Shown here piece by piece: positions 37,619 to 40,800 of a stretch of 64,000 nt of DNA; positions within the stretch are counted from its first letter, which is position 1, and each line of letters begins with the position of its first letter. The DNA is from Paraglaciecola arctica BSs20135. Lineage in GTDB: Bacteria > Pseudomonadota > Gammaproteobacteria > Enterobacterales > Alteromonadaceae. Made by a program: the position numbers and the translations under genes. Under the pieces are notes generated by a model. That model was not told the origin of the DNA, did not search any database, and saw nothing but the letters and a program-made list of their open reading frames with translations. Location of the stretch: NCBI RefSeq assembly GCF_000314995.1, contig NZ_BAEO01000055.1, positions 1 to 64,000 on the forward strand, in the 5' to 3' direction.

Positions 37619-37656
37619 GATAAGCGCCACTAGTCGGGCATGGTAAGTCGCTTATC
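37619..37656. terminator. Shared hairpin between mrcB and the TauE-type gene
   Basis: GATAAGCG (37619-37626) pairs exactly with CGCTTATC (37649-37656) across a 22-nt loop that can pair a little further. It lies between convergent stops, so it may terminate both; T runs are weak. Confidence 0.45.
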
Positions 37657-38410
37657 ATGTGTTAATCATTAGTTTTTGACATAATATGAATATTGCCATT
37701 ATGGTTAAAAATACGGCAAAAGCATGTTTGATTTTTTGCTGTGGTAATTTCATTGAATAACGTTGACCTATAAAACTTCCCAGAATACCTATAATTGATA
37801 TTATGGTAATAGTCGACCAATCCAATAGCAGGTTACTTTCGTGAAGAATGGATTGATATTTAATAAATCCCGCACCTGAATTGATTGATATCACCACCAA
37901 ACTAGTAAAAATTGCTTGGCTCATTACTAATCCACCTAATAAAACTAGGGCTGGCACAATTAAAAAACCACCTCCAACACCAGCAAAGCCTGTCAATAAA
38001 CCTACACCAATCCCCTGCATTATGGTTAACAAGCGATTTAACTCGTTAGGCGCTTGCGGTTTAAAAGAGTGAAACATTCTCCAAGCAGCGGCAAGCATAA
38101 CAATTGCCAATACTATGACTTGTGTTGCGCCTGAAACATAGCTACTTGACCAAGCTCCCACATAGGCACTGAGCATACTTGGTCCGCCAAAATAAATGAC
38201 CAGTGTCCAGTCGACCTTCTTTTGCTTTATACCTATTAAAGCTGTGGTTGCACTAATAGAACCAACAATAAGCAATGCACTTGCTATGGCTACTTTTTCA
38301 GAATAACCCAAACCATAAATTAGCATCGGAACTGTTAATATTGCACCGCCTGCCCCTAAAATACCTAGGCTCAGGCCAATAAGGCTTGCACCAATAAAAA
38401 CAATAAACAT
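37655..38410 (-). CDS. Sulfite exporter TauE/SafE family permease
   Basis: 251-residue integral membrane protein with about eight helices and the two-fold repeat of the family: GASLIGLSLGILGAGGAILTVP in the first half and LLTGFAGVGGGFLIVPALV in the second. Members export sulfite, sulfoacetate or related anions. It lies 92 nt downstream of, and on the same strand as, a desulfurase-persulfide dioxygenase-rhodanese fusion whose expected product is sulfite, which supports sulfite export as its job. That link is inference. Confidence 0.88.
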   Translation of the reverse strand: MFIVFIGASLIGLSLGILGAGGAILTVPMLIYGLGYSEKVAIASALLIVGSISATTALIGIKQKKVDWTLVIYFGGPSMLSAYVGAWSSSYVSGATQVIVLAIVMLAAAWRMFHSFKPQAPNELNRLLTIMQGIGVGLLTGFAGVGGGFLIVPALVLLGGLVMSQAIFTSLVVISINSGAGFIKYQSILHESNLLLDWSTITIISIIGILGSFIGQRYSMKLPQQKIKHAFAVFLTIMAIFILCQKLMINT

Positions 38411-38502
38411 TTTATAAACTCTTACTTATACCAATAGAAATACTAGCTATTGATTTTTGCACTATTGCAACTAGATACTGCTTTGACACAAAAGAACACA
38501 CC

Positions 38503-40800
38503 TTAGTATTGGTGCAATGCATAACCACCTTTTAAGTGGCCGACATTTTCAAATCCTAAGCGTACAAGAGCTTGTGCAGCCAGTTGAGAACGGCTACCAC
38601 TGCGACAAACCAGTATGAGTTGTTGTTGTTTATTATGTTTATGTTGCTGCACAAATTCGACTAATTGCGTCAAGGGCACATTGTTTTCGAAATTTTTGTC
38701 GTGCTGCAGTGCGTATTCGTAGGGCTCACGAAGGTCAATTAATTTCATATTATTTGGTTGTTCTAAAGCTTCGGCCAAACTGCGACTAGTATATTCACGC
38801 ACTGATACTTTTTGGCAATCACCAATTAAAGCTCCACACATAATTTCAGAGCCTGATTGATCGACAATATGTGTATCCATTAGTGTTTTTTGAACTTCAA
38901 ATTGTTTGCTGTCTATTTCGTCAGCAATAACTTGTGCAAGTAACGAGTTGCGTGATATTTCGGCTGTAATACTAGTAGTAAACTCATTATTATAATCATG
39001 ACTGGGACAAATAAGGCTGTCAGTGCCGATAAGCGATTTTAATAACTGCAAACTTGTAAACATAGCTGCTGCACTACTGCCTGAAAAATTGGTTCTGCCA
39101 AGACTATCCATTAAGAGCAAATCACCACAAAACCCGTAATGAACAACCAATTCGTCTGTTGCAGCGTTAGCAGGATCACAAAGTAATAGGCTAATACTAT
39201 CTGCGGTATGGCCAGGCGTGTTTACTTTGACTAGCCACTTATCGCCCAAGATAATGTAGGAGTAGGGTTTGCCATGAATTATTGTTGTCTTTGAGTTAAT
39301 TGGCCATCCAAGAATGTCTGTTTGCTGCTGGGCCAAATAATCTTCGGCAATATCTCCTCGACATGACTGGTGATCAGCGTGGCCATGAGTGTCGATAACG
39401 GCAACTAAATTTAGGTCCTGGCAGGTCAGCAGTGTTTTCAGGCGTTCAGTTAACTCGGGCAACGGGTCGATAAATATTGCAGATTTAGTGTTTTTATCCA
39501 CATACAACCAGCTGCATCCACCACCGACTTTAAATTGAATTAGACCTTCTAGGGGTATTTTGTCAGCAATGATATCTGTGTCTATAGTTAAACAGCTTTG
39601 TGTCAACGCTTGAGCTGCAAAAACTATTCGAGTGCAAGCTTCGTCAATTTGTTGTTGTGTCATCGCTGGCCCAAAGGACATTCGAATTGCGGATCCACTT
39701 TGCCATGCAGGAAGTCCCATAGCGTCTAATACAAAACTGCGTGTGACCTTTGAACTACATGCAGAGCCTGAGCTGACCCTTAAATTCGCGGCGTCGAATA
39801 AATCCATTATTTCTTTAGAGCTAAACTCAGGGATAGCAAAGTTAAGGGTAGTTGGTACTGAATTTTCAAAACTATGATTAAACACAATTTTCGGGAAGGC
39901 TTGGGTTAAAGCAGTGGCAAGTTGTTGGCGAAATAAGTGGAGTGTTTTTAAAGGTGTAAAAGTATTCTTACTATCGCCGTTGAGCATACTAAATATTACA
40001 TTTAAAGCCGCTACACCTGGTAAGTTTTCAGTACCTGATCGTAAACCACTTTCTTGGCCGCCACCGGCAATAAATGCCGTAAATGGTGCGTTTTCTTTAA
40101 CATACATAAAACCAATGCCTTTAGGAGCATAAAGCTTATGACCACTAAAGGGGGCATAGTCAATACTGGTATTAGCCAAGTTCAAATCTGTTTTGCCTAA
40201 TGCTTGTACGCAATCTACCATCCACGCAGTACTTTTATTATTGGCACGTATGGTTTGGTCTAAAAGTTGGATGTCTTGATAAACACCGGTTTCGTTATTA
40301 ACCGCCATGGTACAAATTATTAAGGCATTGGGTACCTCTTTTGCGATAAAATCCATATCAAGCTGACCCATTTCATTCACTGGAATTGCTTTCACTTCGG
40401 CGTTTATTTCAAGAATGTTATTCCAGTGCTTGAGTGACTCAGGTACTGCTTTATGTTCAGTAGCACCATACAAAAGACAATATTTTTTACTGCTATCAAG
40501 CGTTTTTTTCGCACTGTATAATGCTGATAAAATAGCTGTTTGAATGCCTTCTGTAGCGCCACTAGTAAATATAACTTTACCGTCACCAGCGCCAATAATA
40601 TTTTTTGCCTGCTGCCGAGTTTCCTCAATTATCTGTTTTGCCTGAAGCCCTGTAACATGACTACTACTGGGGTTGCCAAAGAGTGTTTCCATGGTTGATA
40701 AAGCAGCCTTCGCGGCTTGCGGGAGCACTTGAGTCGTAGCATTTGCATCCAGATAAATTAAGCTGAGTGGTTGCTTTGGGGTGTTAGGTAAATTAATCAT
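38503..40800 (-). CDS. Three-module sulfur enzyme: cysteine desulfurase, persulfide-dioxygenase-type MBL, rhodanese
   Basis: 765 residues with three enzymatic modules in one chain. Residues 12-400: class V PLP enzyme of the IscS/NifS type, with His116, PLP Lys222 in SGHKLYAPKG and persulfide Cys348 in SSGSACSS. Residues about 415-640: metallo-beta-lactamase fold like ETHE1, with HGHADH (472-477), His531 in NTPGH, Asp560 in FCGDLL and His601, a complete ligand set. Residues about 665-765: rhodanese with Cys732 in VCRSGSRSQ. Expected flow: cysteine sulfur to a persulfide, oxidation to sulfite, optional transfer to thiosulfate. All catalytic residues look intact. Neighbouring TauE-type exporter fits. 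Persulfide dioxygenase-rhodanese fusions are known; the desulfurase addition I do not recall as characterised. Confidence 0.88.
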   Translation of the reverse strand: MINLPNTPKQPLSLIYLDANATTQVLPQAAKAALSTMETLFGNPSSSHVTGLQAKQIIEETRQQAKNIIGAGDGKVIFTSGATEGIQTAILSALYSAKKTLDSSKKYCLLYGATEHKAVPESLKHWNNILEINAEVKAIPVNEMGQLDMDFIAKEVPNALIICTMAVNNETGVYQDIQLLDQTIRANNKSTAWMVDCVQALGKTDLNLANTSIDYAPFSGHKLYAPKGIGFMYVKENAPFTAFIAGGGQESGLRSGTENLPGVAALNVIFSMLNGDSKNTFTPLKTLHLFRQQLATALTQAFPKIVFNHSFENSVPTTLNFAIPEFSSKEIMDLFDAANLRVSSGSACSSKVTRSFVLDAMGLPAWQSGSAIRMSFGPAMTQQQIDEACTRIVFAAQALTQSCLTIDTDIIADKIPLEGLIQFKVGGGCSWLYVDKNTKSAIFIDPLPELTERLKTLLTCQDLNLVAVIDTHGHADHQSCRGDIAEDYLAQQQTDILGWPINSKTTIIHGKPYSYIILGDKWLVKVNTPGHTADSISLLLCDPANAATDELVVHYGFCGDLLLMDSLGRTNFSGSSAAAMFTSLQLLKSLIGTDSLICPSHDYNNEFTTSITAEISRNSLLAQVIADEIDSKQFEVQKTLMDTHIVDQSGSEIMCGALIGDCQKVSVREYTSRSLAEALEQPNNMKLIDLREPYEYALQHDKNFENNVPLTQLVEFVQQHKHNKQQQLILVCRSGSRSQLAAQALVRLGFENVGHLKGGYALHQY

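Follow-up and report, generated by a model that had tools for sequence, protein, structure and literature searches.

The stretch analysed here, called the window, comprises positions 1 to 64,000 (64,000 nucleotides, forward strand) of contig NZ_BAEO01000055.1 from Paraglaciecola arctica BSs20135 (assembly GCF_000314995.1). Our subject is a minus-strand gene in it whose single product joins a predicted cysteine desulfurase (CD), a persulfide-dioxygenase-like (PDO) module of the metallo-beta-lactamase (MBL) family and a rhodanese (Rhd), with a TauE/SafE family permease encoded downstream. The features of the locus and the evidence for each are as follows.

38503..40800, minus strand: fused CD-PDO-Rhd protein, 765 aa (single open frame, domain matches, full-length homologues)
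39628..40758, minus strand: predicted CD module, residues 15-391, NifS/IscS (group I) type (Pfam, NCBIfam and PDB matches, conservation)
38935..39522, minus strand: PDO-like MBL module, residues 427-622 (BpPRF, 4ysb and ETHE1 matches, conservation)
38521..38781, minus strand: Rhd module, residues 674-760, active loop CRSGSR with C732 (Pfam, BpPRF alignment, conservation)
37655..38410, minus strand: TauE/SafE family permease, 251 aa, putative sulfite exporter (Pfam TauE; relatives adjoining the fusion)

The fusion open reading frame starts with ATG, runs for 765 codons with zero internal stops and is separated from the downstream TauE frame by 92 nt. A first-pass annotation of this DNA had read it as one 765-residue frame with three modules, and the frame, the domain matches and full-length homologues of identical three-module order confirm this. 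As such homologues exist, a frameshift or assembly artefact joining separate genes is excluded, and comparison of the sequences confirms the triple fusion as a real, conserved architecture. The fusion gene ends in a weak terminator-like site (38516-38497); the window as a whole has 4 terminator-like sites (3.2 +/- 1.8 in shuffles) and 17 promoter-like sites (11.6 +/- 3.3 in shuffles).

Conservation was assessed in an alignment of 201 rows (the window, 80 loci and 120 listed proteins) and in a set of 321 rows, 200 gamma-type and 121 planctomycete-type, which are search-derived best matches and partly redundant (e.g. L076 = P0123). All the residues named in the first-pass annotation (K222, C348, H472, H474, D476, H477, H531, D560, H601 and C732) stand at the positions it gave, and neither the CD nor the MBL site appears dead, the key residues being nearly invariant across the 201 rows.

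In the CD module, Aminotran_5 (Pfam) matches residues 15-386 at 189.6 bits against a cut-off of 21.5, and the best solved structure for residues 15-391 is NifS (1ecx, E 1.5e-55). The best NCBIfam model is NifS too, at 267.9 bits, under its equivalog cut-off of 530.75; the module stays below the curated cut-offs of all the named enzymes compared (NifS, IscS, DndA, SufS), with IscS at 205 against 643.2. Judged on these matches, the module is of group I (NifS/IscS) type and is no named enzyme by equivalog cut-off. Group I desulfurases use a lysine that binds pyridoxal phosphate (PLP), a catalytic cysteine in an SSGSAC(S/T)S loop, and His, Asp and Gln residues around the PLP. The corresponding residues are K222, C348 in an SSGSACSS loop, H116, D196 and Q199. 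K222 and C348 are present in 201/201 rows; in the larger set (200 + 120 rows), K222, C348, D196 and Q199 are kept in 320/320 and H116 in 319/320, the remaining row having a gap. The Rhd module is matched by the Pfam rhodanese model over residues 674-760 (47.2 bits, cut-off 22.2). Counting the rows with letters there, C732, R733 and G735 occur in 317/317 and R737 in 318/318 of the larger set, and C732 in 199/199 of the 201-row alignment. The loop thus fits the CR.G.R pattern of single-domain-type rhodaneses.

The middle module is assigned by its similarity to BpPRF and ETHE1 and by shared motifs, not by Pfam, whose Lactamase_B model covers residues 427-477 at 21.2 bits, slightly under the cut-off of 22.7. 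The first-pass identification of an ETHE1-type domain was thus well judged. Residues 430-760 match the PDO-rhodanese protein BpPRF end to end (5ve3, E 3.5e-18); single-domain proteins of PDO type come next, first 4ysb, with human ETHE1 (4chl) lower. Equivalences to AcPDO and ETHE1 were derived through the BpPRF alignment and shared motifs, AcPDO itself being absent from the alignment. The iron ligands predicted by homology, H472, H531 and D560, are present in 321/321 rows; in the 201-row alignment H472, H474, H531, D560 and H601 are kept throughout, D476 in 199 and H477 in 198. R569 (319/321), which corresponds to ETHE1 R163, and Y603 (321/321) are the counterparts of the Arg and Tyr common to all PDO types; in AcPDO these are R139 and Y173, described in the available excerpts of PMC6060420 as glutathione-contacting and conserved across all three types. 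Just past the MBL module, C655 occupies the place of ETHE1 C247 and AcPDO C224 in 320/321 rows, with a gap in the last; according to the same excerpts, C247 seems to be the sole cysteine strictly conserved in Type I PDOs (PMC6060420). Two further cysteines, C403 (318/320 rows) and C429 (320/320), are near-invariant where the iron site is intact, and C403, C429 and C655 could possibly form a relay, a disulfide or a metal site.

That the MBL module might be a glyoxalase-II-like hydrolase is suggested by the best NCBIfam match in this region, GloB at 50.9 bits. This score, however, is far under the GloB cut-off of 200.8, and in the PDB ranking GloB comes after BpPRF, 4ysb and the ETHE1 proteins of plant and human. 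The ETHE1 Cys and Arg are kept (C655, R569), and D476/H477 drift in five relatives (L180, L181, L182, L191, L192) whose iron ligands are intact. We regard a hydrolase as very improbable. Variation at D476/H477, the second metal site, was also considered as proof of mononuclear iron; that argument is weakened by AcPDO D61A and H62A, both inactive in the available excerpts of PMC6060420.

The family is widespread and patchy. In a scan of GTDB species genomes (80 loci), Paraglaciecola, Colwellia, Pseudoalteromonas, Shewanella and certain unclassified gammaproteobacteria had proteins 46-88% identical to the window fusion, and those of Arsukibacterium and one Pirellulaceae genome were 44% identical. 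Three protein searches gave homologue lists: the best 120 of 3861 matches for the window fusion, with identity up to 94%; the best 120 of 3150 for a Pirellulaceae query, with 57-100% identity and with named members from Planctomycetota and Verrucomicrobiota; and the best 120 of 2977 for a query from genome G315. A family member was found in 5/22 genomes of the genus, 43/394 of the order and 10/398 of the phylum, and in planctomycete samples (centre genome included) a match occurred in 1/294, 3/246, 2/196 and 3/196 genomes. The order sample (42 relatives and the window) has intact CD and Rhd sites in 43/43 and intact iron ligands in 41/43, two members thus being without an intact PDO site, as is one (G315) of the 10 in the phylum. 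Members carry domain names only: 'cysteine desulfurase', 'aminotransferase class V-fold' or 'cysteine desulfurase-like / glyoxylase-like metal-dependent'. Two proteins labelled as from Flavobacteriales metagenome-assembled genomes (P0010, P0025) are 86-88% identical to the window fusion; they are probably mis-binned, or possibly transferred.

The permease downstream matches TauE (PF01925) over residues 5-241 with 146.8 bits against a cut-off of 32.6. Substrates vary within the TauE/SafE family, and on family membership the window protein is a putative sulfite exporter. Used as a query, this protein (P0002) found neighbours in 3/80 loci (L002, L003, L004; 75-84% identical). A TauE profile built from 21 training sequences was then run over 130 loci, 119 of them with distinct fusions, and 1.61 Mb of flanking sequence. 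It found 12 TauE genes in the 119 distinct loci, every one within 407 bp of the fusion open frame. In the window, L002, L003 and L004 the gene follows the fusion in the same direction; in L155 and five piscicida-type Pseudoalteromonas loci (L041, L045, L050, L055, L068) it is divergent; and in the planctomycete loci L206 and L207 it precedes the fusion in the same direction, with the open frames 4 and 23 bp apart. Pfam was run on five of the twelve proteins (window, L045, L155, L206, L207). Between host groups, the TauE proteins are 22-49% identical where BLAST aligns them. Two phyla and four host groups show the linkage, in three different orientations.

Absence of TauE beside the fusion at 107/119 loci might suggest that the adjacency arose by chance. 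It should be noted that remote TauE types may be missed by the profile, and that 7 of the 107 loci end within 1.2 kb of the fusion on one side. At the density of the window genome (7 TauE genes per 5.96 Mb), chance would place about 0.1 TauE inside the 407-bp zones on either side of the 119 fusions, a rough figure for loci that are not independent, against 12 of 12 observed in the flanks. Chance is scarcely credible as an explanation, and the linkage is occasional and beyond chance. The first-pass proposal of a linked exporter is borne out by its recurrence in unrelated hosts, but the exporter is no fixed partner: even in the window's genus it stands beside the fusion in 3/5 fusion-bearing genomes. 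TauE as an obligate partner was rejected on the count of 12 in 119 distinct loci.

Sulfur-related neighbours encountered at two or more loci were TauE, SLAC1 and cysteine synthase (CysK). In a Shewanella-related lineage (L072, L176, L177), the fusion is followed by a SLAC1-family channel and preceded by CysK, all on one strand, with a gene between; the L177 copy of that gene matches TetR below threshold. CysK is also directly upstream in L058. Family scans confirmed the SLAC1 of L176 and the CysK of L058. The SLAC1 family includes the yeast sulfite pump Ssu1. L156, L157 and L162 have a divergent Lrp/AsnC regulator next to the fusion, as does L197 from outside the order (48-50% identical), and a further one lies beyond TauE in L207, in the second phylum. 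One Lrp/AsnC family member of E. coli responds to cysteine, and the regulators near the fusion are possibly cysteine-responsive as well. The neighbour proteins scanned with Pfam did not include SQR.

With a probability of roughly 60%, we propose that the fusion removes sulfur from cysteine and, after a relay via the cysteine of its rhodanese, oxidises it to sulfite, which is exported by local partners where these are present. We infer all the chemical steps from the sequences and gene order. Given its intact sites, the PLP module would transfer the sulfur of L-cysteine to Cys348 as a persulfide and release alanine. The Cys348 loop would then pass the sulfur to Cys732 of the rhodanese, directly or via a small thiol, for which a CD-Rhd chimera from Pseudorhodoferax offers a precedent. 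By homology to BpPRF and ETHE1, the PDO module would use its iron and O2 to turn the persulfide into sulfite. In some hosts, gene linkage suggests that sulfite, or thiosulfate formed from it, would leave through the adjoining TauE permease or SLAC1-family channel. The net reaction would be cysteine + O2 to alanine + sulfite. If so, a single marine-bacterial gene would carry out a conversion of cysteine sulfur to sulfite that is generally assumed to require a number of enzymes and a freely diffusing persulfide. Cysteine breakdown would be tied directly to the marine sulfite/thiosulfate pool, a widespread protein named only by its domains would have a function, and persulfide channelling would have a tractable test.

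Several findings weigh against this route, in addition to the 107 loci where no TauE was found. The first of them concern the PDO site, described in the first-pass annotation as a complete ETHE1 set: all seven residues it named are present, whereas other positions important in characterised enzymes are changed. At the position of ETHE1 D165 and AcPDO D141, the partner of the active-site Arg, 196/200 gamma-type rows have Asn (N571 in the window), and AcPDO D141A retains 1.5% activity in the available part of PMC6060420. Asp is found at position 571 in 120/121 planctomycete-type rows, and both forms occur in the order sample. A change to Asn in the marine clade, with mostly Asp elsewhere, makes a shift in substrate or rate possible. 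Neither set keeps the Type-I glutathione contacts (R190 and K212 in AcPDO), whose positions via BpPRF are L620 (mostly Leu/Phe) and H644 (variable). Since the marine clade is without these three residues, its substrate may be other than glutathione persulfide. Type II PDOs are also without R190/K212-type contacts (PMC6060420), so loss of the contacts alone leaves glutathione persulfide possible as the substrate. In addition, D476/H477 are altered in 5/321 rows, and of the 40 relatives in the order sample that keep their iron ligands, five (the loci given above) show such a change; two of these, L191 and L192, are also without R569. The AcPDO counterparts of D476/H477, D61 and H62, are described as essential in the excerpts of PMC6060420, and altered members may be inactive at the PDO module.

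The end-to-end alignment of residues 430-760 with BpPRF raises another explanation, namely that the C-terminal half acts in the way reported for BpPRF: its rhodanese would turn thiosulfate into glutathione persulfide for oxidation by the PDO, and the desulfurase would be an independent sulfur source within the same polypeptide. BpPRF is said to prefer thiosulfate, and the title of Motl et al. 2017 places it in sulfur assimilation. Such a division of labour fits poorly with the missing Type-I glutathione contacts and with the desulfurase fusion being kept in both the gamma-type and the planctomycete-type sets. Moreover, in the Pseudorhodoferax chimera transpersulfidation proceeds from L-cysteine, not thiosulfate, though its rhodanese accepted thiosulfate, according to the available text of PMC8931425. 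We consider it improbable.

A second group of contrary findings comes from relatives whose dioxygenase site has decayed. The search with the G315 protein, which matches Massilia forsythiae, gave a Massilia-type set (P0243-P0362). Of its rows, which are the best 120 of 2977 matches, 0/120 retain all three iron ligands, while the CD site (K222, C348, H116, D196, Q199) and the rhodanese loop are intact in 120/120. L195 and L196, from the window's own family, have likewise lost the metal site and kept intact CD and Rhd sites. This suggests that desulfurase and rhodanese form the core and that the dioxygenase is an added sink, an arrangement that fits the Pseudorhodoferax chimera as described in the available part of PMC8931425. 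In a tree of 62 desulfurase domains, ten Massilia rows form a clade (100/99) that joins, at 99/99, the protein of L188 with its intact PDO module, so loss of the dioxygenase in the Massilia-type lineage is the likely direction; the deeper forks of this tree are unsettled and its outgroups sit on long branches. Seen as a whole, P0243-P0362, L195, L196 and L197 make up a domain-decay series in which the MBL metal ligands, or most of the domain, are gone and CD and Rhd are intact.

The same relatives bear on the role of the rhodanese, which the first-pass annotation had viewed as capturing sulfite as thiosulfate. Because the Massilia-type proteins keep the CD and Rhd sites without the PDO iron ligands, the rhodanese probably serves first as the sulfur acceptor of the desulfurase; this loss and the precedent of the CD-Rhd chimera leave the sulfite catcher as the less likely of the two roles. 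The cysteines of the Massilia-type rows suggest a further step. C403, C429 and C655 are absent from all 120, while C598, likewise near-invariant, is retained in all 120, so not every conserved cysteine tracks the iron site. Because the Type-I glutathione contacts are lost and C403, C429 and C655 follow the iron site, the fusion might work as an assembly line in cis: the PDO substrate would be a persulfide held on the protein (at Cys732, C403, C429 or C655) rather than free glutathione persulfide, and no reactive sulfur would be released. If true, this would define a glutathione-independent class of persulfide dioxygenase. We advance it tentatively, as possible rather than probable; L195 is without the iron site yet retains C403 and C429.

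The last contrary findings lie in the neighbourhood. At L212 (5543-13229; G1359, a planctomycete-related genome), the fusion is located in a suf operon, after a SufC-type ATPase, SufB and SufD and before a Rieske ferredoxin, in the place expected of SufS, which would speak for sulfur supply at that locus. The commonest shared neighbour families, e.g. DUF386 and S8 peptidase, are genus-level and have no evident sulfur role. The fusion may then be mainly a sulfur-supply desulfurase for Fe-S clusters and other acceptors, with the rhodanese distributing persulfide and the PDO burning only the excess, a view with which the outlasting of the PDO site by the CD and Rhd sites in the Massilia-type rows agrees. 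However, suf genes were encountered at L212 alone, no systematic search for them having been made, and it is TauE, SLAC1 and CysK that recur. Two further class-V genes of the window genome also outscore the fusion on Aminotran_5, and for one of the two identity to the CD module is 34%. A mainly supplying role is thus unlikely in our judgement, and oxidation of cysteine sulfur to sulfite is the reading we prefer.

No account of the three-module fusion was recognised when the full texts of an open-access collection were searched, subscription papers being mostly outside that scope; its parts have several known relatives. BpPRF (Burkholderia/Paraburkholderia phytofirmans, PDB 5ve3-5ve5) matches the fusion in PDO-rhodanese order and module length, in the metal-ligand motifs, in the ETHE1 C247-type Cys and in having a Cys-containing rhodanese loop. 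It has no desulfurase, whereas the window fusion is without the R190/K212 contacts and, in the marine clade, has Asn at D141. Blh, the bifunctional sulfur transferase-dioxygenase (NF040641), also combines an MBL dioxygenase with a sulfurtransferase; it has no desulfurase, and the window fusion scores 20.3 bits against its cut-off of 625. Staphylococcus CstB, a PDO-sulfurtransferase of the CstR regulon with tauE and sqr, likewise places PDO and rhodanese near TauE, and in the available text of PMC5480029 it has no desulfurase and is SQR-linked. A PDO beside TauE is known from sulfide-detoxification operons, as far as the available parts of PMC7315123 and PMC5480029 describe them. The Rho-PDO fusion of cable bacteria also carries a rhodanese and a PDO-like MBL domain on one chain; its rhodanese is N-terminal, it is uncharacterised, and the word desulfurase is absent from PMC13047784. 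Closest to the proposed core is the Pseudorhodoferax CD-Rhd chimera (WP_056898193.1), which has CD and Rhd on one chain, likened here by description rather than by sequence alignment. As given in the available part of PMC8931425, it is a 54 kDa protein and a homodimer that passes on the sulfur of L-cysteine, its preferred donor for transpersulfidation, and a dioxygenase is never mentioned there. The Massilia-type relatives with a dead MBL module may bridge this chimera and the triple fusion. In summary, PDO-rhodanese fusions, CD-Rhd chimeras and PDO-TauE linkage were already known, and what is new here is the Massilia-type loss of the PDO site with the CD and Rhd sites kept.

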